Of a stretch of DNA of 64,000 nt, positions 12,555 through 63,594 are shown one piece after another; the stretch's first letter is position 1; the number at the start of each line of letters is the position of its first letter. Source of the stretch: Flaviramulus sp. BrNp1-15 (GTDB lineage: Bacteria; Bacteroidota; Bacteroidia; Flavobacteriales; Flavobacteriaceae); contig NZ_CP092099.1 in the NCBI RefSeq assembly GCF_022259695.1, positions 2,650,471 to 2,714,470 on the forward strand, in the 5' to 3' direction. Below the pieces are notes generated by a model. It was not told the origin of the DNA and made no database searches. It saw nothing but the letters and a program-made list of their open reading frames with translations. A program made the translations under genes and the position numbers.

Positions 12555-12640
12555 CAGTTTTGGATGTGGTTTAGTCATTCTAAAACACGAGGTTTGATAA
12601 AAAAATAGAAGCAATTAATAATAAACGTTATTGGTGATTC
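12555..12640 (-). repeat. attC-like repeat R0 (degenerate, partial)
   Basis: Downstream of the VOC gene. The minus strand starts AATCACCAATAACG then a TTATTATTAATTGC arm, which matches the left arm of better copies at most positions. The distal part around 12563-12580 (GGATGTGGTTTAGTC) resembles the other arm. The central hairpin is not recognisable and the far edge cannot be fixed. Confidence 0.5.
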
Positions 12641-12652
12641 TTTTTAATTTTC

Positions 12653-13003
12653 TTAAATGCTTTGACCAAATGTCAATAGGTTGGTATCTGGATCAAGTAT
12701 AGAGAATTCCTTTTGTCCCCAAGGTTTAGATTCCAATTTCCCATTTGGGTGAATAGTTACGTTATTATTTAATAATGTTTGGTAAAAATTGTCGATATCA
12801 TCAGTTCTAATATAAACTTGTCCGTAATTATCTTCAGGAGCAAGTTCTTTAAATTCAAAGAAATGAATTTCTATTTTATCTTTTCTAACCATTAAATACC
12901 CTTCATAATCGCTTATTTCTTTAAATCCTAGCTTATTTACATAAAATGTTCTAGTAACATTTTTATCACGCATAGGTAATTTCGGATTAATATCGGTTAG
13001 CAT
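12653..13003 (-). CDS. VOC-family (glyoxalase/bleomycin-resistance-like) protein
   Basis: 116 residues with the paired beta-alpha-beta-beta-beta modules of the vicinal-oxygen-chelate fold: FYVNKLGFKEISDYEGYLMV in the first half, VYIRTDDIDNFYQTLLNN and FSILDPDTNLLTFGQ in the second. Putative ligand residues are His near position 48 and Glu/Asp near the C-terminus, but the full metal set is uncertain. Members include bleomycin-binding proteins and diverse dioxygenases. It is the gene of the oldest-looking unit in array 1, with unit ends matching at 10 of 13 bases. Confidence 0.85.
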   Translation of the reverse strand: MLTDINPKLPMRDKNVTRTFYVNKLGFKEISDYEGYLMVRKDKIEIHFFEFKELAPEDNYGQVYIRTDDIDNFYQTLLNNNVTIHPNGKLESKPWGQKEFSILDPDTNLLTFGQSI

Positions 13004-13067
13004 AGTTGTACTATTAGTATTTCTAAATCATATTTTTCAATCCAATTTCAATATATCACGCCTGTTT

Positions 13068-13207
13068 AATGACCACTGACGTGTTTATGTATGGTAGTTG
13101 CGAGTCTTTCATTAAAATAGCCAAAGGAAATGAATCTATTGAAAATACGTAGGATTTTCCAAATAAACATTTGCCAAAGCAATTAATTACACACGTTGTT
13201 GTATGCA
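13068..13207 (-). repeat. attC-like repeat R1
   Basis: Downstream of the protease gene, 123 bases from its AAC core to its GTC (normally GTT) core. On the minus strand it begins TGCATACAACAACGTG, continues with a GTAATTAATTGC arm, has a central hairpin with arms GAAAAT and ATTTTC, and ends GCAACTACCATACATAAACACGTC. Its outer bases are complementary to the start of the same cassette at 14034-14043. Confidence 0.8.
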
Positions 13208-13211
13208 GTTT

Positions 13212-14009
13212 TTAAGGTAAACTATCAAATATTTTTTCCAAATATGATGCTTTCCATAATGCACCATAGATGTAAAGTTTATGTGAATGTGAAAAGACTC
13301 CCATAAATTTTGATTGACCAGTTACAAATGCATTTTTGCCATTTTTAAGTTTTACCATTTGATTACTTTTAAAATAAACTGGGGAACCAGACATTCCTGG
13401 GAAAGTTATAGCGTCAACCCACATTATTGGCTTTCCTTCTTGATCAAAATCTGGTTCAGATGCAATTAGTCCAGATTTCCATACAGGAAATGCAGGAAAA
13501 CTTCTCACACCTCTGGGAAATCCTAAAATGAATACTCTATCAGTAGTTGTTATTTGGACTTCGTCATACGCTGATTTTTTATAATTAACTGGATAAGTTT
13601 TTACTCCAAGAGTATCTTTTAAAGGTAATTCAATTACGTCAACATATTCATTCTTTATTTTATTTTCATGCCATAATTTATTGCCTAATTTATCAAATAA
13701 ATGTTCAGTTTTCAAAATATAAGTTCCCAAACTATCTGCATTGTGAAGTATTACAATTTTATTAGGTGCTACAGGTTTTTTTGGGTCAAGCCATTTATTG
13801 TTGAAAGGATTTTTATTAGTTATAACATGATAATTTGTAACTAAATAATTTTGAGTTTTTGATTTGATAATAAAACCTGTTGCGCTACTTAATTTAGTTG
13901 TGCCATTGTAAGTTTCTATATACAAACTTTGTAAAGACTCAATCTGCGTAATGGTTTGACTTATTGCAGATATAGGTAAAAAAAATAAAAATAGTATAAG
14001 GTTTCTCAT
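13212..14009 (-). CDS. Secreted trypsin-like serine protease (cassette gene)
   Basis: A signal peptide of about 17 residues precedes a chymotrypsin-fold domain. The His site is YLVTNYHVIT (around residue 58), a plausible Asp lies in VDVIELPL (about 126), and the catalytic Ser is in TFPGMSGSPVYF (about 215). The strand LVTNYHV and loop GMSGSPV are typical of stress-type trypsin-like peptidases without a PDZ domain. Substrate is unknown. Its cassette has 10-bp complementary ends (GTTGTATGCA at 13198 and TGCATACAAC at 14034). The stop lies five bases from the repeat edge and the leader is about 24 bases. Confidence 0.82.
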   Translation of the reverse strand: MRNLILFLFFLPISAISQTITQIESLQSLYIETYNGTTKLSSATGFIIKSKTQNYLVTNYHVITNKNPFNNKWLDPKKPVAPNKIVILHNADSLGTYILKTEHLFDKLGNKLWHENKIKNEYVDVIELPLKDTLGVKTYPVNYKKSAYDEVQITTTDRVFILGFPRGVRSFPAFPVWKSGLIASEPDFDQEGKPIMWVDAITFPGMSGSPVYFKSNQMVKLKNGKNAFVTGQSKFMGVFSHSHKLYIYGALWKASYLEKIFDSLP

Positions 14010-14033
14010 TGTTAGAGTAAAGTTTGTTCAAAT

Positions 14034-14173
14034 TGCATACAACGGTTTTATCTATGGTTAGTTGCGTGTTTCAGCAACTAATTTAGCAAACAAATCACAG
14101 ATAGAAAATTCCAGCGGAATTTTCGTAAGTCGGCAGTGAACCAAACAATTAATTATACACGTTGTTGTAACTT
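14034..14173 (-). repeat. attC-like repeat R2
   Basis: Lies between the winged-helix and protease cassettes; 126 bases from AAC core to GTT core. The minus strand reads AAGTTACAACAAC, arm GTGTATAATTAATTG, central hairpin with arms GAAAATTCC and GGAATTTTC around GCT, then arm CAACTAACCATA and core ACCGTTGTATGCA. It contains the segment CTAAATTAGTTGCTGAAACACGCAA, shared in large part with R5 and R7. Confidence 0.85.
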
Positions 14174-14183
14174 GTTTTTTAAA

Positions 14184-15047
14184 TTATTCCTTTTCAAAAT
14201 AGATTTTTGTCATAATACTATCTTTAACAACAGAATCATTTAATACATAATCAAATGCAATATTAATAACTCCTAAAATCTCTTTATCTTCTTTTTCAAA
14301 ATAAGCAATTCTATTTCCACTAAGAAGCATTTTTCTTTTAATCTGGAGTATTACAGATTCTTTTGTATTTACCGAATCTATTATTGGATTTGAAATAAAT
14401 GTTTCTAAAAGATTAATTTCAGGTTTCATTTCAAACCCTTGAGCTTCTTTTAAAATATATGGCTTGTCATAAAATTCATAATTGACAATTCTAAAATTTT
14501 CATTTATAATACTTTTAGTTCCTTGATAGGTAAATTCAATCTCTAAACTGTCAATTGTTGTAAAACTATCCATATTTGTAGTAATTCGATAGGGTTCAAC
14601 TCTTACTAAAGGTTTAACTAATTTATTAGAATGATTACTTGTATTTTCTATCGAGGAATTACTAAATAATAATATATAGCCGACAATTAAACCGCCAAAA
14701 ATTGCAATTGTCCAAGGATCATATAATATCTTTTTTAGATTAATTTTCCATTTAGAAGATAGTTTTGAATATCCTCCAAATTTTAAAAACTCGTAACCTT
14801 TTTTTGTGATTTCTGGGTTTTTTAGTTGATAATTTGCATCAAATTGAAAATTTACTAAACCATCTTCATTCAGTCTTCTCAAATATTTCATAGAAGTATT
14901 AGTTAATAATTCTAATTGCTGATTTGGTTCATTTTCTTTTTTGAGTAGTTCTTTTAAAATATTATCTAGAGTTTTAATATCATCTTTGTCTAAACTTAAA
15001 TGAGAGTTTGGGTTTGAAATATTTATGTTAAAATCTGTTTTTTTCAT
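14184..15047 (-). CDS. Winged-helix-like single-pass membrane protein (cassette gene)
   Basis: Not assigned to a family. Residues about 20-95 look like a small winged-helix domain (KYLRRLNEDGLVNFQFDANY then ITKKGYEFLKFGG, a phrase common in YjcQ/marR-like helices). One transmembrane helix follows at about 115-132 (TIAIFGGLIVGYILLFS), then a 150-residue outer domain of beta character. This topology suggests a membrane-tethered sensor or regulator, by inference. Cassette ends are GTTGTAACTT (14164) and AAGTTACAAC (15054), a perfect 10-bp complement; the leader is only seven bases. Confidence 0.6.
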   Translation of the reverse strand: MKKTDFNINISNPNSHLSLDKDDIKTLDNILKELLKKENEPNQQLELLTNTSMKYLRRLNEDGLVNFQFDANYQLKNPEITKKGYEFLKFGGYSKLSSKWKINLKKILYDPWTIAIFGGLIVGYILLFSNSSIENTSNHSNKLVKPLVRVEPYRITTNMDSFTTIDSLEIEFTYQGTKSIINENFRIVNYEFYDKPYILKEAQGFEMKPEINLLETFISNPIIDSVNTKESVILQIKRKMLLSGNRIAYFEKEDKEILGVINIAFDYVLNDSVVKDSIMTKIYFEKE

Positions 15048-15053
15048 CTAAAT

Positions 15054-15191
15054 AAGTTACAACGGTCTAGTGTATGATTTCGTTGCCTGTTTAAGCATTA
15101 AAGTTAGCGAATAAATCACAGATAGAAAGTCCGCGAGGACTTTCGTAAGTAAGCTATAACTAGCAATGAATTATACACATTGTTGTGCTTA
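15054..15191 (-). repeat. attC-like repeat R3
   Basis: Lies between the HEPN/nuclease and winged-helix cassettes; 124 bases between cores. The minus strand reads TAAGCACAACAAT, arm GTGTATAATTCATTGC, hairpin arms GAAAGTCC and GGACTTTC around TCGC, then GCAACGAAATCATACAC and core ACCGTTGTAACTT. Both the hairpin (AT pair to GC) and the arm (TTA/TAA to TTC/GAA) differ from other copies in a compensatory way. Confidence 0.85.
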
Positions 15192-15192
15192 G

Positions 15193-16140
15193 TTATTTTA
15201 TCGTTGTCGTATAATAAATTTCTTTTCCGAAATGTGCCATAGTATCAATTTCTAAAAAATTTGAGCTCGGAACATTTTTTGGATACCATAAAATACCTTG
15301 TTCAATTTTGGTTGCAGTTAGATAATCCAATAGTTGGTCTTCGTGAGAATGAGTTTGTCTAATTGAAGGTCGTTTGAATTCAATTATTAGTTTTTCTTTC
15401 CCTAATTCGACCAACATATCCAATCTGTAACTTCTGTTTTTGTCAGAATGTTTAACGTCAGTTTTTACTTCAATTTCTTTCGATGCAGTTTTGATAAAAG
15501 CACTAAACATTCCAATCAATTCAAGTTCTTTAGTGTTAGAATTTAAAAGTTTATTTTCTGTAGAAAACTCTTTTATTAATTCAACTATTTTTTCGTGTAA
15601 ATCTAAATCAGGTTTTTTAATAATTGCTTGAATTAACTTCTGCTTTTCCTTTTCATTTTTAAGTCTTTCTTTCTCGTTATCAAAAGCAAGTTTTTCAATG
15701 ATTTGATTTAATAAAACATATATGTAAGCCGAAACGTTTACAATAGCTAAAAATGCCTCACTTTGGTCAAAGAATAGTTTAAAATCGTGAGTTGACTTAT
15801 TCCTCCATTCTTGTCTGTAATTTTTAAAAAAGTGAAGAACACGTTCATTAAATATTGAATTTGTCTCAAAGAAATCCTCAATATCAACAGTTCGCTTATT
15901 GTTAGCTTGACTTTCAGATTTTTCAGCTAAAATCATATATGATTGCCTTAAACTTCCCTCAAAAGCTTGATTAGTTCTGTAGATTACATCTGTAAAATAG
16001 TTTTCATCTCCATTTAATCTTCCCTCTTTGTAGAAAAATTCAGCACGTTCAATATGAATTAGAACTTTATCTAAAGTCACAGCAGAAGATAATTCTCTTA
16101 TCTCTGTTATTTGCTCTCTGATTGCATTTAAAGTGTCCAA
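15193..16140 (-). CDS. Probable HEPN + PD-(D/E)XK nuclease-like fusion (cassette gene)
   Basis: Residues about 22-155 are all-helical and resemble a HEPN domain: IHIERAEFFYKEGRL, YRTNQAFEGSLRQSYMIL, then the RNase-type motif RNKSTH (Arg113, His118, Rx4H with Asn after Arg). A charged coiled region (155-175) follows. Residues 225-290 carry a restriction-type core: RLDMLVELG (Asp241), LIIEFKRP (Glu254, Lys256), and a helix with EDQLLDYL (Gln269). HEPN RNases and PD-(D/E)XK nucleases are both common in defence and toxin systems, so a defence role is plausible but inferred. Cassette ends are GTTGTGCTTA (15182) and TAAGCACAAC (16161). No partner antitoxin gene is visible. Confidence 0.6.
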   Translation of the reverse strand: MDTLNAIREQITEIRELSSAVTLDKVLIHIERAEFFYKEGRLNGDENYFTDVIYRTNQAFEGSLRQSYMILAEKSESQANNKRTVDIEDFFETNSIFNERVLHFFKNYRQEWRNKSTHDFKLFFDQSEAFLAIVNVSAYIYVLLNQIIEKLAFDNEKERLKNEKEKQKLIQAIIKKPDLDLHEKIVELIKEFSTENKLLNSNTKELELIGMFSAFIKTASKEIEVKTDVKHSDKNRSYRLDMLVELGKEKLIIEFKRPSIRQTHSHEDQLLDYLTATKIEQGILWYPKNVPSSNFLEIDTMAHFGKEIYYTTTIK

Positions 16141-16160
16141 TTTCGGTAGTTTTTTCTAAT

Positions 16161-16292
16161 TAAGCACAACTAAGGGATATGAATCATTTCACACTTCTAC
16201 TTCACTCATTAAAAACCAATTACACCCACTAACAAGCTAAATTAATAGAAATGCCACACTATTGAAAGCGAAGTTATTAAGAGTTGTAAACA
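16161..16292 (-). repeat. attC-like repeat R4 or array boundary site (divergent)
   Basis: The upstream edge TAAGCACAAC complements the far end of the HEPN cassette. A GTTGTAAACA box at 16283-16292, seven bases before the end of the pyruvate-kinase-like gene, gives a 118-base AAC-to-GTT interval, close to the other copies. The interior shows little of the family arms or hairpin (only a GTTAGTGGGTGTAATTGG segment on minus). It may be a decayed repeat or a primary attachment site; no partner for GTTGTAAACA was found upstream of the kinase-like gene. Confidence 0.45.
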
Positions 16293-26165: not shown

Positions 26166-26277
26166 AGCACGCTAACTCATTTTTGTAGAATTTTTAGTTA
26201 TTTTAGAGGTGGTATATAATGTGGATAAACGTATTATCTTTATCCATATGTTGTACACAATTTAACCAAACATTTGT

Positions 26278-26898
26278 ATGAAAGAAAATAAACATTATTT
26301 AATATTACCTTTTTTCTTGTTAGTAATATCTTGTTTAAATAATAAATCTTCAGATGAAACTATTGAGGTTAATTTTAGTCAAAAGACCATAAAAAATCAG
26401 ATATTTAAAAATCCCGAAGCAAACAAAACGAATAGTATTGCTGTAGAATTCGCGAAAAAAGGAGAAAACATAAAAGCGGAAAATATTTTCCATGAAGCTT
26501 TAGAAATCGAGCCTGATAACTACACGATAATGAGCAACATTGGATTGAATTCATTAGCTCTTAAAAAATATGACAAATCAATTGAATTTTTAAAAAAATC
26601 AATTACTGCTTCTGATTCAACTTATTTTATTGCAAGTTCCAATTTAGGACTTGTCTATTACAAAACTTCTGAATATGAAAAATCTATAAAAATTTTAGAC
26701 TTTGTCATTAAAAATTGTGATGATAAAGAAATTATTTTAGCTTCTTATATAAACCAAGCTTTTAGTTACTTATCAATCGGAAATTGTACTGAAGCTAAAA
26801 ACAACTTAATTCTTATTAAGAAAATAGAATTTGAATACAATGCTGACGTTGAATATGTTGAAGAAAAATTAAAAAAATGTGTACAACAACGTGTATAA
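26278..26898 (+). CDS. TPR-repeat lipoprotein (cassette gene)
   Basis: A lipoprotein signal ends LVISC (Cys19). Residues about 55-200 form four tetratricopeptide-type helix pairs (AVEFAKKGENIKAENIFHEAL, NIGLNSLALKKYDKSIEFLKK, NLGLVYYKTSEYEKSIKIL, NQAFSYLSIGNCTEAKNNL), a protein-binding scaffold. No partner is known. The last six codons, including the stop, lie inside repeat R5, so the C-terminal VQQRV is encoded by the repeat. Leader of 18 bases after the cassette edge. Confidence 0.85.
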   Translation: MKENKHYLILPFFLLVISCLNNKSSDETIEVNFSQKTIKNQIFKNPEANKTNSIAVEFAKKGENIKAENIFHEALEIEPDNYTIMSNIGLNSLALKKYDKSIEFLKKSITASDSTYFIASSNLGLVYYKTSEYEKSIKILDFVIKNCDDKEIILASYINQAFSYLSIGNCTEAKNNLILIKKIEFEYNADVEYVEEKLKKCVQQRV

Positions 26899-27020
26899 TT
26901 AATTGCTTTGGCAAGTGCTTATTTGGAAAATTCCTTCGGAATTTTCTCGCGTTCGTTTTTGTTTACTAAATTAGTTGCTGAAACACGCAACTAACCATAC
27001 ACAACAACGTTAGGAGTAAT
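26878..27020 (+). repeat. attC-like repeat R5
   Basis: 127 bases from AAC to GTT core. The order is TGTGTACAAC, AAC, arm GTGTATAATTAATTGC, central hairpin with arms GAAAATTCC and GGAATTTTC around TTC (26926-26946), arm GCAACTAACCATACAC, AACAAC, GTTAGGAG. The two arms pair over 16 bases with three A-C mismatches that are G-T wobbles on the other strand. It is about 91 percent identical by eye to R7, 35 kb away. Confidence 0.9.
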
Positions 27021-27071
27021 AATGACCAAACAAAGTTAACTTCAATCAGTTATTAATCAGATTAAAATACA

Positions 27072-27770
27072 ATGACTCACACCAAGACTTTTAAATTAGT
27101 ATTTCTTCAAATACTAATTATAATTTCAACAAAATCCTTTTCTCAAATTGTTGACAAACACTACAATCATAAAACAGCAGCACTTGAATTAGAAAACGTA
27201 GCCAAAAAAATAAGCTCTGGATTACCATATAATATCAGTCCAAAATTAGTGCAGTATATGTATGAAAATCATGAGGATTTTCCGAAAATACCAGAAAACT
27301 CTAGTTCTAAAAATAAAATGGAAACCCTAGCCCCTACTTATACCTACATTAATTTAATCCTTAAATCACAATTGATTGCACCTCAGGATTCAATTTCTAA
27401 AAAACAGGCTATGTTAGCGGCTACTCTCGGATATCAATCTATTAAAATTATTTCTCTATCCAATGAATTCATAAATTCTCTGGATAAGGATGCTTATAAT
27501 TACAAAACACGGGTTAGAGGATTTAATCAAGGAATAAAAGGCTTAAAGCAGTATCTTTTAGGCTATACTACAATGACATTTTTAGAAAATCAAAACCAAA
27601 ATGTTGATGACATACTAATTTCAAATTTAAAAAATTTTGCTCCAAAAATCTTAAATGAATTTCCTAGAGATGAAAAAGAACTAACCATTCAATTACTAAA
27701 GTCATCAATAGAAGGGAAAAATGATATTCGATTAATAAATGAATTCAATAGTTTTATTGAATCACTATAA
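27072..27770 (+). CDS. Exported protein of unknown function (cassette gene)
   Basis: A signal peptide (cleavage near KSFS-Q, residue 24) precedes a 208-residue mostly helical domain: NHKTAALELENVAKKI, a segment with KKQAMLAATLGYQSIKIISL, and NQGIKGLKQYLLGYTTMTFLENQN. No family is recognised. The conserved Lys/Gln face and absence of Cys give no enzymatic clue. Its cassette ends (GTTAGGAGTAATA and TACTATTGCTAAC) match at 10 of 13, older than the neighbours. The leader of about 50 bases is the longest of the plus-strand units. Confidence 0.65.
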   Translation: MTHTKTFKLVFLQILIIISTKSFSQIVDKHYNHKTAALELENVAKKISSGLPYNISPKLVQYMYENHEDFPKIPENSSSKNKMETLAPTYTYINLILKSQLIAPQDSISKKQAMLAATLGYQSIKIISLSNEFINSLDKDAYNYKTRVRGFNQGIKGLKQYLLGYTTMTFLENQNQNVDDILISNLKNFAPKILNEFPRDEKELTIQLLKSSIEGKNDIRLINEFNSFIESL

Positions 27771-27778
27771 AGCAAATG

Positions 27779-27920
27779 TACTATTGCTAACATAGTCTAT
27801 AATTTATTGCTAAGACTCTACTGCTTTCGAAAATCCTACGGATTTTATATTCGGTTTGTATTTGCTAAATTAGTTACTTAACAACACAATAAAAACGATG
27901 TTTAAAACCGTTGCAATCAA
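27779..27920 (+). repeat. attC-like repeat R6 (degenerate)
   Basis: 124 bases between AAC and GTT cores. The left arm TCTATAATTTATTGC and the central hairpin (arms AAAATCC and GGATTTT around TAC) are clear, and CTAAATTAGTTACT is shared with R5 and R7. The right arm is disrupted by an A-rich segment, and the edge is ACCGTTGCAATC. Confidence 0.65.
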
Positions 27921-60594: not shown

Positions 60595-60987
60595 TTAGGC
60601 AGAACCTAATACTTGTTTTAAACTGGAAATTTGATTTTCCCATAACATTTTAGCTTCATCAATCTCATCTTCTTCAGCAAAATCGGTAACTATTAAAGAC
60701 ACATCTTTTGTGATTTCATCAACTTGAATTCTAATTTCAAAAAAGCATGTTAATTCGTCCTCTTCATCTTCCATCCATCTAAACTTTACGCGTTCTCCAC
60801 TTTTCTTATTTAACAACTTTGCTTTTTCCTCGCTGTCATCCCAAATAAAAGTAAATAATTCACCTCTTGAGTTTACATTATCTGAAAACCATTCAGACAA
60901 ACCAGATGGTGTTGATATGTATTGATATAATAACTGAGGAGAGGCATGTATTGGAAATTCAATATCAAACTTTACTTTATCGTCCAT
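60595..60987 (-). CDS. START-like domain protein
   Basis: 130 residues of the Bacteroidota START-like (SRPBCC) type: KFDIEFPIHASPQLLYQYIS, PSGLSEWFSDNVNSRGELFTF, then GERVKFRWMEDEEDELTCFF and a final helix. The start is fixed by the family N-terminus. Ligand unknown. Followed by a terminator, then the aminotransferase. Confidence 0.88.
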   Translation of the reverse strand: MDDKVKFDIEFPIHASPQLLYQYISTPSGLSEWFSDNVNSRGELFTFIWDDSEEKAKLLNKKSGERVKFRWMEDEEDELTCFFEIRIQVDEITKDVSLIVTDFAEEDEIDEAKMLWENQISSLKQVLGSA

Positions 60988-61118
60988 AAGTACTTTTAAA
61001 ATTTATATTGCCCAATATATACATTAATTAATAAGTATAATAACTATTTTTAATAATATTTTACTCAACTTCTGTTTGCTTACAATAATATTGTTTTTAT
61101 ATTTGCAGCCTTAAATTA

Positions 61119-61192
61119 GGCGAGGTAGCTCAGTTGGTTAGAGCGTCGGATTCATAACCCGGAGGTCGGGGGATCGTGCCCCCCTCTCGCTA
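61119..61192 (+). tRNA. tRNA-Met (anticodon CAT)
   Basis: A 74-base cloverleaf: acceptor GGCGAGG / TCTCGCT with G-T ends, D-stem GCTC/GAGC, anticodon loop TTCATAA with CAT, T-stem GGGGG/CCCCC, and discriminator A. Because there is no C1-A72 initiator mismatch and the three GC anticodon pairs are imperfect, an elongator Met tRNA is more likely than initiator. The T-loop is ATCGTGC rather than TTCRANY, and the anticodon stem closes with an A-C pair. No CCA is encoded, as is usual here. An integrase fragment follows 55 bases downstream. Confidence 0.88.
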
Positions 61193-61247
61193 CAAATGTA
61201 AAATCACACAAAACTAGCGGTTTAGGTTTTCTCTAAACCGTTTTTTT

Positions 61248-62081
61248 ATGTCTACATTTAAACAAATTCTTACTTTTGCATACGAAAGTGAATACGAAAG
61301 TGCATACGATTTGTCAAAAAAGAAACTTTTTTCCAGTCCAAAAATCTATACAGCCAACGGAAATTTATCCAAGCGATGGTATGTGTATTTTTCCTTTCGA
61401 GACCCCAATACAGGTAAACTAAAGCGTCTCACCCCGTTTTATGGAACAGCAAACACTTATAAAACCAAGGAAGAGCGCATGGAAGTACTTACAGTATATC
61501 GTAAAGTATTACTCAAGCTCTTAAAACAAGGTTATAATCCTTTTAAAGATAACACTGCGTTATATCAAAAATTACATGGAAAAACTATAACCACACCTTC
61601 AATAACTGAAGAAAGCACCCAACAAAAAGAAGCGAAACAGAGCTTAAATCAACCCCGAGAAATGCCCAATCTATCATTGAGGGCTGCGTTTGATTATGGT
61701 TTAAAACTCAAAGAAAAATTAGTAGGTGTACGTACTTTAAAAGATTATAGAAATAAAATAGATCTGTTGTTAAAATGGTTGGATAAAAACCATCCAAATA
61801 TTAAAACAATTGACACTTTAGATAAACAGTTGGTTCTTCAGTTTTTAAACCATGTTTTAGATAAAACCTCTCCACGTAATAGAAATAATTATCGAGCCGA
61901 TTTAGGTAGCATTATTCAAGTGTTGGAAGATAATGATGTTATTGGACAGAACTTTGTAAAAAACATACCCATATTAAAATCAAAACCAGAACGCAATAAA
62001 ACCTATACGTTAGAAACTCAAGAAGCAATAGATAAGAACATAGAACTTTCTATAAAGGAACAAGAGAACAAAAAGAATTAA
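61248..62081 (+). pseudogene. Tyrosine integrase fragment lacking the catalytic domain
   Basis: 277 residues: an N-terminal arm-type region (SKRWYVYFSFRDPNTGKLKRL) and a SAM-like core-binding domain (about 150-245, LKDYRNKIDLLLKWLDKNHP, SPRNRNNYRADLGSIIQVLED). It then reads ETQEAIDKNIELSIKEQEN and stops where the Flavobacteriaceae integrase family continues into the catalytic domain. The Arg, His-x-x-Arg and Tyr of the recombinase site are therefore absent. The break coincides with repeat R7 of cassette array 3, ten bases from the stop. It sits 55 bases from tRNA-Met, a typical island site. Confidence 0.8.
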
Positions 62082-62083
62082 AC

Positions 62084-62224
62084 TATGCACAACACCGTGT
62101 ATAATTAATTGCTTTGGTCGTTGCTTATATGGAAAATTCCTTCGGAATTTTCTCGCGCTCGTTTTTGTTTACTAAATTAGTTGCTCAAACACGCAACTAA
62201 CCATACACAAGACCGTTGTACACC
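62084..62224 (+). repeat. attC-like repeat R7
   Basis: 127 bases between cores. The layout equals R5: TATGCACAAC, arm GTGTATAATTAATTGC, hairpin arms GAAAATTCC and GGAATTTTC around TTC, arm GCAACTAACCATACAC, ACCGTTGTACACC. It differs from R5 at about 12 of 130 bases by eye. Its left-edge bases (TATGC) have no complementary partner nearby. Confidence 0.9.
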
Positions 62225-62236
62225 ATTTGAGGAAAT

Positions 62237-62731
62237 ATGAAAATACTGACAATATTTACACTTTTTTTATTTATTAATTCTGGGATTATAGAGAATAATT
62301 GCGTTGATAATGTGAAAATCGGAATGGATATTTCTGAATTTTTAGAAAGTAAGAGAGAAATTTACAAAGTCAAAGAAGAAACAATAAATCTTGAAGGAGA
62401 TGACTATCCTATTTTTAATGTTTATGAAAACTCTGAATTGATTTATGCTGTAGAACCAGACGAAAACGGAGAAAAAGTGTGGAGGATTTGGCTATATGGA
62501 CAGAAGTTCAAAACAGAATTAGGAATTGGTATAGGCAATACTCTTGTTGACTTAAAAAACAAATATACCATTGACGATATATCAACAGCCGAGGGAAGTT
62601 TATTTATCTTGGTCAAAGAAATTGAAGTTGGTTTTGAATTAGATGGCTCTAAAATACCAAGAGAATGGTGGAACGAAATGAAGCTTGAGGAATTGAAAAA
62701 TGATTTACCGATAAGTTTAATAATAATATAA
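62237..62731 (+). CDS. Exported protein of unknown function (cassette gene)
   Basis: 164 residues with a signal peptide (LTIFTLFLFINSGI), then a domain with VKIGMDISEFLESKREIYKV, IYAVEPDENGEKVWRIWLYG and IGIGNTLVDLKNKYTIDDI. The repeated IGxxxxxxL pattern suggests two similar halves, seen in small beta-rich periplasmic proteins. No family is recognised. A 10-bp perfect complement bounds the unit; leader of 12 bases, stop five bases from the right edge. Confidence 0.65.
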   Translation: MKILTIFTLFLFINSGIIENNCVDNVKIGMDISEFLESKREIYKVKEETINLEGDDYPIFNVYENSELIYAVEPDENGEKVWRIWLYGQKFKTELGIGIGNTLVDLKNKYTIDDISTAEGSLFILVKEIEVGFELDGSKIPREWWNEMKLEELKNDLPISLIII

Positions 62732-62735
62732 AAAC

Positions 62736-62879
62736 GGTGTACAACAATGCATAAAAATAATGCTTAGTTTTATACTTAATCAAAGTTTAGTGCTTTTTTG
62801 TTAGCTTCTGATTTTCCTTCGGAAAATCCTCGCATACAAACACGTAACTTTTCTTACACATAAACATTTTGCACAATAT
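62736..62879 (+). repeat. attC-like repeat R8
   Basis: 126 bases from the AAC core to ATT in place of GTT. The central hairpin has arms GATTTTCC and GGAAAATC around TTC (62810-62828), unlike R5 in sequence but equally paired. The arms are more diverged (ATGCATAAAAATAATGC with a CTTACACAT side). Edge bases continue into the next gene's start. Confidence 0.75.
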
Positions 62880-63450
62880 GAAAATCGAGATGCGAAGAAT
62901 ATTAATAGTAATATTTTTACTGTCAACCAGTTTCGGATTTGGACAAAATACGACCTCTGAAAATTGGAATGAAAATGATAAGGCGCAATACTCTAAACTA
63001 AAGGGATTAGCTAAATACGTGTATAACAAAGAAAAGTCTGAAATCTCAAAAGATAGTTTATTTGACAAATATGTCTTTTTCGACTATGTCCTAAACGATA
63101 CTGTTTCTGAAAGAAGAGAAAGAAGAATTGTTGCGTTCGACACGCTTTTTTATTATTTCAAAAAAACGGTTGAAAGTATTGGATTGGAAAACTTGGATGC
63201 TAAACCAGTAAGATATTATAAAAATCACGAAATTTATAAGCCTTTCGATGAGGAAAAATCTGAACTGAAAACCGTTGGAGGAGAAAAAATGTATGCTAAA
63301 GATGACAACGTTTTTGCGTACTTCAGAAAGGAAGAGCCTGAAAATCCAATAGGAGTATTACTATTTGAACCTGAAACTGACAAATTAGGAGCTTGGATTA
63401 TGATAAACCAAGGTGGATACAAATATTTTTTAACGTTTAGTCTATTATAA
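62878..63450 (+). CDS. Exported protein of unknown function (cassette gene)
   Basis: The ATG at 62878 gives MKIEMRRILIVIFLLSTSFG, a signal peptide cleaved near FGFG-Q; a TTG three codons upstream or the ATG at 62890 are alternatives. The mature part (QYSKLKGLAKYVYNKEKSEI, VLNDTVSERRERRIVAFD, GVLLFEPETDKLGAWIMINQ) has no recognised family. The start codon lies inside the cassette edge, the most compact arrangement in the window. Confidence 0.65.
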   Translation: MKIEMRRILIVIFLLSTSFGFGQNTTSENWNENDKAQYSKLKGLAKYVYNKEKSEISKDSLFDKYVFFDYVLNDTVSERRERRIVAFDTLFYYFKKTVESIGLENLDAKPVRYYKNHEIYKPFDEEKSELKTVGGEKMYAKDDNVFAYFRKEEPENPIGVLLFEPETDKLGAWIMINQGGYKYFLTFSLL

Positions 63451-63452
63451 AA

Positions 63453-63594
63453 ATACTGTACACAACAACGTATATAAAAAATTGCTGGTGTTGTGCTAAA
63501 ACAAAGGTCGTTGCACGTTTGCTACGTCTGATTTTCCTTCGGAAAATCCTCGCACGCAAACCCGCAACTTTCCATATACAAACACGTTACAGGT
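63453..63594 (+). repeat. attC-like repeat R9
   Basis: 125 bases between cores. The hairpin has arms GATTTTCC and GGAAAATC around TTC (63530-63548). The left arm GTATATAAAAAATTGC and right arm GCAACTTTCCATATAC pair over 16 bases with the same three A-C positions as R5, although the intervening bases (TTA/TAA in R5) have changed to AAA/TTT. Confidence 0.85.

Follow-up and report, generated by a model that had tools for sequence, protein, structure and literature searches.

What kind of element has built the gene units in a 64,000-nucleotide stretch of the Flaviramulus sp. BrNp1-15 chromosome, where single genes alternate with copies of a common repeat? This stretch, referred to here as the window (64 kb, 31% GC, C1:2650471-2714470), is part of a complete, 3.58-Mb single-contig genome. 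An initial annotation of the window proposed an integron-like cassette system, as the two ends of each unit are complementary to one another yet differ from unit to unit. Based on the comparisons described below, we put at roughly 0.88 the probability that the repeats belong to an integron-like system as its attC-type sites and that the genes between them are mobile cassettes. A recombinase, an attI-like palindrome, an array, a covarying hairpin and breakpoints at (G/A)|TT were all found, although the system is not confined to the array in the window, since the window units are outlying cassettes situated 170-220 kb from the recombinase gene.

Complementary unit ends and the folded repeat

In all five window units for which complementary ends had been described (5/5), the ends were complementary at 10 of 10 positions when counted from GTT (GTT+7 at one end, 7+AAC at the other). 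The box, however, was not the GTTGT/ACAAC of the initial annotation. Only GTT/AAC was constant, with GTTAGC.., GTTGGC.. and GTTACC.. also seen, and the next seven bases were specific to the unit and complementary within it. Past base 10, the 5′ end of a unit mostly continued with ATT and the 3′ end was preceded by AAAAC and then G or T. The boxes were non-classical, as had been claimed: of the consensus pair RYYYAAC / GTTRRRY, the RYYYAAC form fitted only 7 of 114 R″ boxes.

A sequence-only model built from eight window copies of the repeat identified about 50 good copies in the same genome, as well as repeats in other Bacteroidota. Among the 49 own-genome copies with a readable AAC box, 26 had an upstream partner matching at 10/10 and 3 more had one at 9/10, while the boxes of other units, which served as decoys, reached 10 in 2.6% of cases. 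In 20 other genomes, where the median cassette length was 650 bp, the ends matched at 9-10 positions in 96 of 114 units versus 4.1% of decoys, and a match of 11 was reached in 0/114. Copies that failed the end-match were mostly old ones with degraded ends. The excess of complementary ends over control ends that the initial annotation implied was present, and far above chance, in this genome and in the 20 others.

Minimum-energy folds of single repeats gave inconsistent structures, whereas an alignment of 63 copies from some 20 genomes, written as the bottom strand, gave a common 16-bp stem (the L stem) in which 98.5% of cells were paired, compared with 29-48% in slid controls. Changes on both sides were present in 11 of the 16 stem pairs, and there were 108 double-change cells versus 22 in shuffles, none of 500 being as high. 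Two of the stem pairs were G.T in 63/63 copies, and in 63/63 the arms of the bottom strand were more stable than those of the top strand, because these two pairs become A.C mismatches on the latter. Some copies had one extra base in the stem and most had the invariant G.T wobbles, which lie at positions where classical attC sites have extrahelical bases. Outside the L stem was an unpaired spacer of ~6/3 nt, followed by the R stem, which consists of AAC/GTT and the seven cassette-specific bases. The L stem is based on covariation and the R stem on the complementarity of the ends. Judged from these alignments, the architecture of the repeat is that of integron attC sites.

The recombinase, its array and the landing pads

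The best match in the genome to the integron integrase model was a 376-residue tyrosine recombinase (C1:2886557-2887687). Directly 3′ of its gene was the palindrome ATATATAGTTACTAGTAACTATATACATAC, and then GTTGTGCATA, where a first cassette begins; this cassette ends in TATGCACAAC. The array comprised at least 16 attC-ended units over ~15 kb, all oriented like the recombinase gene, and two of its cassettes were identical across 558 bp. Most of the cassette genes had no Pfam match. One cassette (L045:12080-13683) contained an AbiEii-type gene with a partner open reading frame in front of it and is probably a toxin-antitoxin cassette, a type that is common in large integrons. The product of the first cassette (L014:12759-13880) had an abortive-infection C-terminal domain (Abi_C). 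A tRNA-like stretch before the attC of this cassette, GGTTCGAGTCCCCC...CACCA, was seen by eye, and a tRNA or tmRNA was rejected as ARAGORN called none. A 126-residue protein with CxxC motifs and no confident family match (L014:11089-11469) is encoded divergently from the recombinase gene, with which it shares an upstream region.

Scanning with the recombinase identified 37 loci, almost all in Flavobacteriaceae. At most of these loci a palindromic site came directly after the gene, conserved as far as GTT and followed by unrelated sequence. For instance, the Winogradskyella loci had 96-99% identity over the 400 bp up to GTT and 9-29% over the next 400 bp. Every checked repeat (116/116) was downstream of the recombinase gene and on its strand. 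Two draft contigs (L066 and L076) ran for no more than ~100 bp past the recombinase gene and stopped close to the attI-like site, as though assembly fails where arrays begin; arrays may be under-represented in drafts.

In a sample of 249 Flavobacteriaceae genomes, nearly one per genus, 216 had the repeats and about 45 had a close recombinase (≥56% identity). Thirteen genomes had strong repeats and no close recombinase, and 12 of these had a more distant one (33-45% identity). Several of the distant recombinases adjoined arrays, with an attI-like end of their own, CATATAAC-N-A-GTT. A third, short form, which has no N-terminal domain, was found near repeats in another Bacteroidota family, on the strand opposite to the array. 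Across the phylum, the repeat model matched 78 of 395 genomes.

Evidence for mobility came from cassettes at more than one position. The same cassette was present in two loci from different genera (L067 and L175) at 96.7% identity over 876 bp, with ends at G|TT, and a cassette from the array described above was also found in a different genus (L167) at 91% over 430 bp, with the same ends. Cassettes were also repeated within arrays. Solo cassettes elsewhere in the genome occupied copies of an ~85-bp element, which we term a pad. The pad consists of the promoter-like TTGACTTTGTAAAAATTTTCAACTAACTTCG (TTG-N20-TAACTTCG, picked by eye) and then a mini-hairpin ending ATCGC(A/G)|TTAAACGAAC, and one copy in this genome was empty. 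Pads were present in 12 of 25 relatives tested and also in other genera.

Comparison of orthologous pads with a genome of another genus (G544) revealed the junctions. One pad was occupied in Flaviramulus, with the left junction ..CATATCATCGCA|TTACACAC.. and the right junction ..TACGTAACCG|TTAAACGAAC, and empty in G544, which reads ..CATATCCTTGAAG|TTAAACGAAC. A second pad was empty in Flaviramulus and occupied in G544 by a cassette with the ends GTTATAGTCA/TGACTATAAC, which matched at 10/10, and a third held different cassettes in the two genomes. The breakpoints were at (G/A)|TT and target duplication was absent. These occupied and empty sites agree with the lack of target-site duplication reported in the initial annotation, which had also suggested looking for cassette gain or loss in related strains; in this comparison between genera, gain or loss was exactly at the (G/A)|TT boundary. 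At the junctions the left base is that of the target and the right G derives from the repeat, which puts the exchange between base 1 and TT, the position known from integrons. At the pyruvate kinase locus, no usable orthologue was found among 30 sampled relatives.

The recombinase scored 203 bits against the IntI model TIGR02249, below its cut-off of 265, and this model was among its best NCBIfam matches. It passed the cut-off of the XerA-type model NF040815, the closest NCBIfam equivalog above cut-off. As NCBI has named NF040815 “site-specific tyrosine recombinase/integron integrase”, gene annotations may bear that phrase without the system having been described. Given the box fit of 7/114 and the score under the TIGR02249 cut-off, it is plausible that standard integron models miss the system. 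Between KGxKDR and HxLRHSFAT the recombinase has 73-74 residues, compared with 115 in IntI1 and Bacteroidota IntIs, 81 in XerD and 75 in XerA. By this spacing, the IntI-specific insertion is absent. The two R, K, two H and Y that tyrosine recombinases are expected to need were invariant in the family alignment. The predicted core resembles the IntI4 and XerA structures, with IntI4 (2a3v) the closest fold.

In a tree from a careful search with more rows, which replaced a quick first tree that had given long-branch warnings, the IntI clade excluded the recombinase (100/99), and the recombinase and IntI were placed together versus Xer (100/96). The group that contained the recombinase (92/91) consisted solely of Bacteroidota recombinases without the insertion, which fall into three types (A, B and C). 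The lineage is thus likely sister to IntI. Classical IntIs over the cut-off were present in 105 of 395 genomes sampled across the phylum, and none of these 105 was from Flavobacteriaceae. Near three inspected classical IntI genes from other Bacteroidota families (L243, L244 and L245), no clear flavobacterial-type repeats were found in the stretches examined, the sole match being a weak one (E = 0.006) about 0.8 kb from the L244 gene.

The recombinase has ~90 extra N-terminal residues, and the prediction of an N-terminal domain had good confidence as far as residue ~78. No consistent match for this domain came from Pfam, and every Foldseek match was above E 0.03. The nearest folds were the XPB damage-recognition domain (Z 6.8) and the SMARCAL1 HARP domain (Z 4.1), which are weak and possibly fortuitous likenesses. 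Our guess is that the domain may read folded or distorted DNA.

Units of the window

The array in the window is on the minus strand and its head is an insertion site at 16157-16190, ATTCATATCCCTTA|GTTGTGC, with a CATAT-N6-GTT motif that is common to attI, pads and attC. Cassette 1 (15057-16170) has a gene for a 315-residue PD-(D/E)XK nuclease-like protein (15193-16140) and the attC-like repeat R4 (15057-15187). Its ends are GTTGTGCTTA / TAAGCACAAC, with the G of GTT at 16170 and the R″ box at 15176-15192. Cassette 2 (14037-15063) encodes a 287-residue protein with no Pfam match (14184-15047), followed by the attC-like repeat R3 (14037-14169), and has the ends GTTGTAACTT / AAGTTACAAC (G of GTT at 15063, R″ box 14158-14174). 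Cassette 3 (13076-14043) encodes a 265-residue trypsin-like protein (13212-14009). Its attC-like repeat, R2 (13076-13203), has a degraded R′ end, and the cassette ends are GTTGTATGCA / TGCATACAAC (G of GTT at 14043, R″ box 13192-13208). A probable old fourth cassette on the same strand (12589-13076) has a glyoxalase-like gene (12653-13003) and an attC-like remnant at 12589-12633 that is a weak match (E = 0.63).

The remaining units are on the plus strand. Cassette A (26250-27014) has a gene for a 206-residue protein with TPR repeats (26278-26898), the attC-like repeat R6 (26882-27014) and the ends GTTGTACACA / TGTGTACAAC, with the G of GTT at 26250, the R″ box at 26877-26893 and the insertion point CCATAT|GTT. 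Cassette B (27009-27916) has a gene for a 232-residue protein with no Pfam match (27072-27770) and a degraded attC-like repeat, R7 (27788-27916). Cassette D (62215-62871) encodes a 164-residue protein (62237-62731) and has the attC-like repeat R9 (62740-62871) and the ends GTTGTACACC / GGTGTACAAC (G of GTT at 62215, R″ box 62735-62750). Cassette E (62869-63592), whose 5′ end is degraded, encodes a 193-residue protein (62869-63450) and has the attC-like repeat R10 (63461-63592). Degradation of the older units had been implied in the initial annotation, and it was seen in five repeats of the window, at 12.6, 13.1 (3′ end), 27.8, 62.7 and 63.5 kb.

The attC-like repeat R8 (62088-62220, plus strand) is directly 3′ of a truncated phage- or integrative and conjugative element (ICE)-type integrase gene (61248-62081). 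A tRNA-Met gene (61119-61193) precedes this 277-residue integrase gene, which stops 9 bp short of the R8 AAC box and looks to have been cut by a cassette event. The R″ 10-mer TATGCACAAC was found both at R8 and in cassette 1 of the array next to the recombinase gene. Window positions 60679-61297 had 85% identity to the region upstream of the G544 integron recombinase gene (L162:3508-4125).

Proposed mechanism, alternatives and known integrons

The layout, the structure, the breakpoints and the movement between positions and genera could be read from the sequences compared, and in these respects the system works like an integron, yet it is not a standard IntI integron. The steps that we propose add to this an acting protein, single-strand chemistry and expression from pads. 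The bottom strand of a cassette repeat would fold into the R stem, the unpaired spacer and the 16-bp L stem with its two fixed G.T wobbles. The recombinase would then exchange one strand between the folded repeat and an attI-like or pad site, cutting GTT (or ATT) after its first base, ahead of TT. The complementarity specific to each unit would be maintained because both ends must pair in a circular cassette. Cassettes would also enter the dispersed ~85-bp pads, where the promoter-like sequence suggests that they are probably transcribed.

Several points weigh against this reading. Position and the attI-like boundary are the only links between the recombinase and the repeats, and the window units are 170-220 kb away from the recombinase gene. 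Excision and circles are proposed from comparison of sequences. The reading of the junctions assumes that the A-type pads were formerly ATCGCATTAAACGAAC, a state of which no empty example was observed; both of the empty pads found are of the GTT type. The promoter role of the pads relies on a resemblance to what we take to be the Bacteroidetes consensus. Finally, some genomes have repeats and no close homologue of the recombinase. One of these (G462), a single contig, had at least 13 repeat matches and only Xer-like recombinases were found in it; its repeats may be left over from a recombinase since lost, or may mark cassettes that were moved in trans.

The system could instead be an ordinary integron whose recombinase is an aberrant IntI, set apart from known ones by sequence drift alone and no longer carrying the additional domain. 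Its sites have the architecture and crossover point of integrons, TIGR02249 (203 bits) is among the best NCBIfam matches, the predicted fold is nearest to that of IntI4 2a3v, and in the tree the recombinase groups with IntI rather than Xer (100/96). Nevertheless, we consider this explanation unlikely, as the IntI clade excludes the recombinase (100/99), whose own group (92/91) is made up solely of the insertion-free types A, B and C, the score is far under the cut-off of 265, and the classical IntIs of 105/395 genomes in the phylum include none from Flavobacteriaceae. It is improbable that the recombinase made the array while the solo pad cassettes arrived by homologous recombination between pads or repeats. 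Such exchange is possible since both are repeated sequences, and R8 and array cassette 1 do share the R″ 10-mer, but pads of differing sequence have their junctions precisely at (G/A)|TT, and the same orthologous pad holds different cassettes.

Modules of the Xer/dif type, in which the host XerC/D recombines short dif-like sites around genes as in the pdif modules of Acinetobacter plasmids, would fit with the NF040815 (XerA-type) match and with the presence of Xer-like genes. However, the sites are ~130-nt covarying, strand-biased hairpins rather than a ~28-bp duplex, arrays begin at the end of a dedicated recombinase gene, and that gene is outside the Xer clade (100/96). On site structure and the tree we rejected this explanation, which appears very improbable. 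Scarcely credible are miniature inverted-repeat transposable elements or repetitive extragenic palindrome-like elements spread by a transposase, with the complementary ends as terminal inverted repeats. About 50 dispersed copies in one genome, some solitary, and their hairpins are features of such elements. Yet whole genes with their repeats were gained at (G/A)|TT without duplication, the variable ends belong to the gene unit and not to the repeat, and the checked repeats near recombinases are all codirectional and downstream. For the compared pads, the occupied and empty orthologous sites refute it.

Among the known gene-capture platforms of bacteria, integrons are the principal one, and what defines their integrase is an additional domain deemed necessary for recombination of folded DNA. 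In PMC9668308, which cites Messier and Roy 2001, the IntI-specific additional domain near patch III is reported as necessary for recombination, and PMC8138268 called the domain necessary for integron recombination, yet not fully conserved. We speculate, with the odds evenly balanced, that Bacteroidota integrons use IntI-sister recombinases that never had, or do not need, this domain; in Flavobacteriaceae a ~75-residue N-terminal domain may replace its recognition role, and cassettes go to many promoter-bearing pads, making a chromosome-wide integron. A sister lineage apparently doing the same job without the domain offers a direct test of what folded-site recombination needs and of integron origin. 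As repeats were present in 216 of the 249 sampled Flavobacteriaceae genomes, there may be a large and mostly uncharacterised pool of cassettes that has escaped notice in a dominant marine group. The promoter-like pads, if confirmed, would provide a novel means of expressing captured genes. In the open-access literature, a scope outside which preprints and most subscription journals fall, we found no description of a flavobacterial integron with a recombinase other than IntI.

The flavobacterial system shares with the IntI chromosomal integrons, such as the Vibrio cholerae superintegron, and with class 1 integrons a recombinase gene, attI and codirectional, mostly single-gene cassettes. Further common features are an attC hairpin with an R stem, an unpaired spacer, an L stem, a variable terminal part and a bottom-strand bias, as well as the G|TT crossover, cassettes common to different genera and a toxin-antitoxin cassette. 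It differs from them in that its recombinase has no IntI-specific insertion and has ~90 extra N-terminal residues, and in that its attI-like site is a palindrome located where the recombinase gene ends, with the array running in the same direction as that gene. Its R″ boxes fit RYYYAAC in 7/114 cases, pairing runs seven bases past GTT, invariant G.T wobbles stand in place of what are generally understood to be extrahelical bases, and promoter-like pads are dispersed over the chromosome.

XerA, XerC and XerD resemble the flavobacterial recombinase in that it passes the XerA-type cut-off and has no IntI insertion, but it is outside the Xer clade, is tied to folded repeats and arrays, and has an extra N-terminal domain. 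Cassettes at scattered genomic positions are, on a general understanding, a likeness to attG sites, although many of the flavobacterial targets are copies of a single ~85-bp element, which combines a promoter-like part with a hairpin of its own and is present in other genera as well. The abstract of PMC12901181 names attG sites as genomic integration sites of cassettes other than attI and attC. Sedentary arrays with attI and attC outside Proteobacteria are shared with the archaeal and other non-proteobacterial integrons (Ghaly et al. 2022, PMC9668308). The IntIs of those integrons carry the IntI-specific additional domain (PMC9668308), whereas the flavobacterial recombinases are without it.

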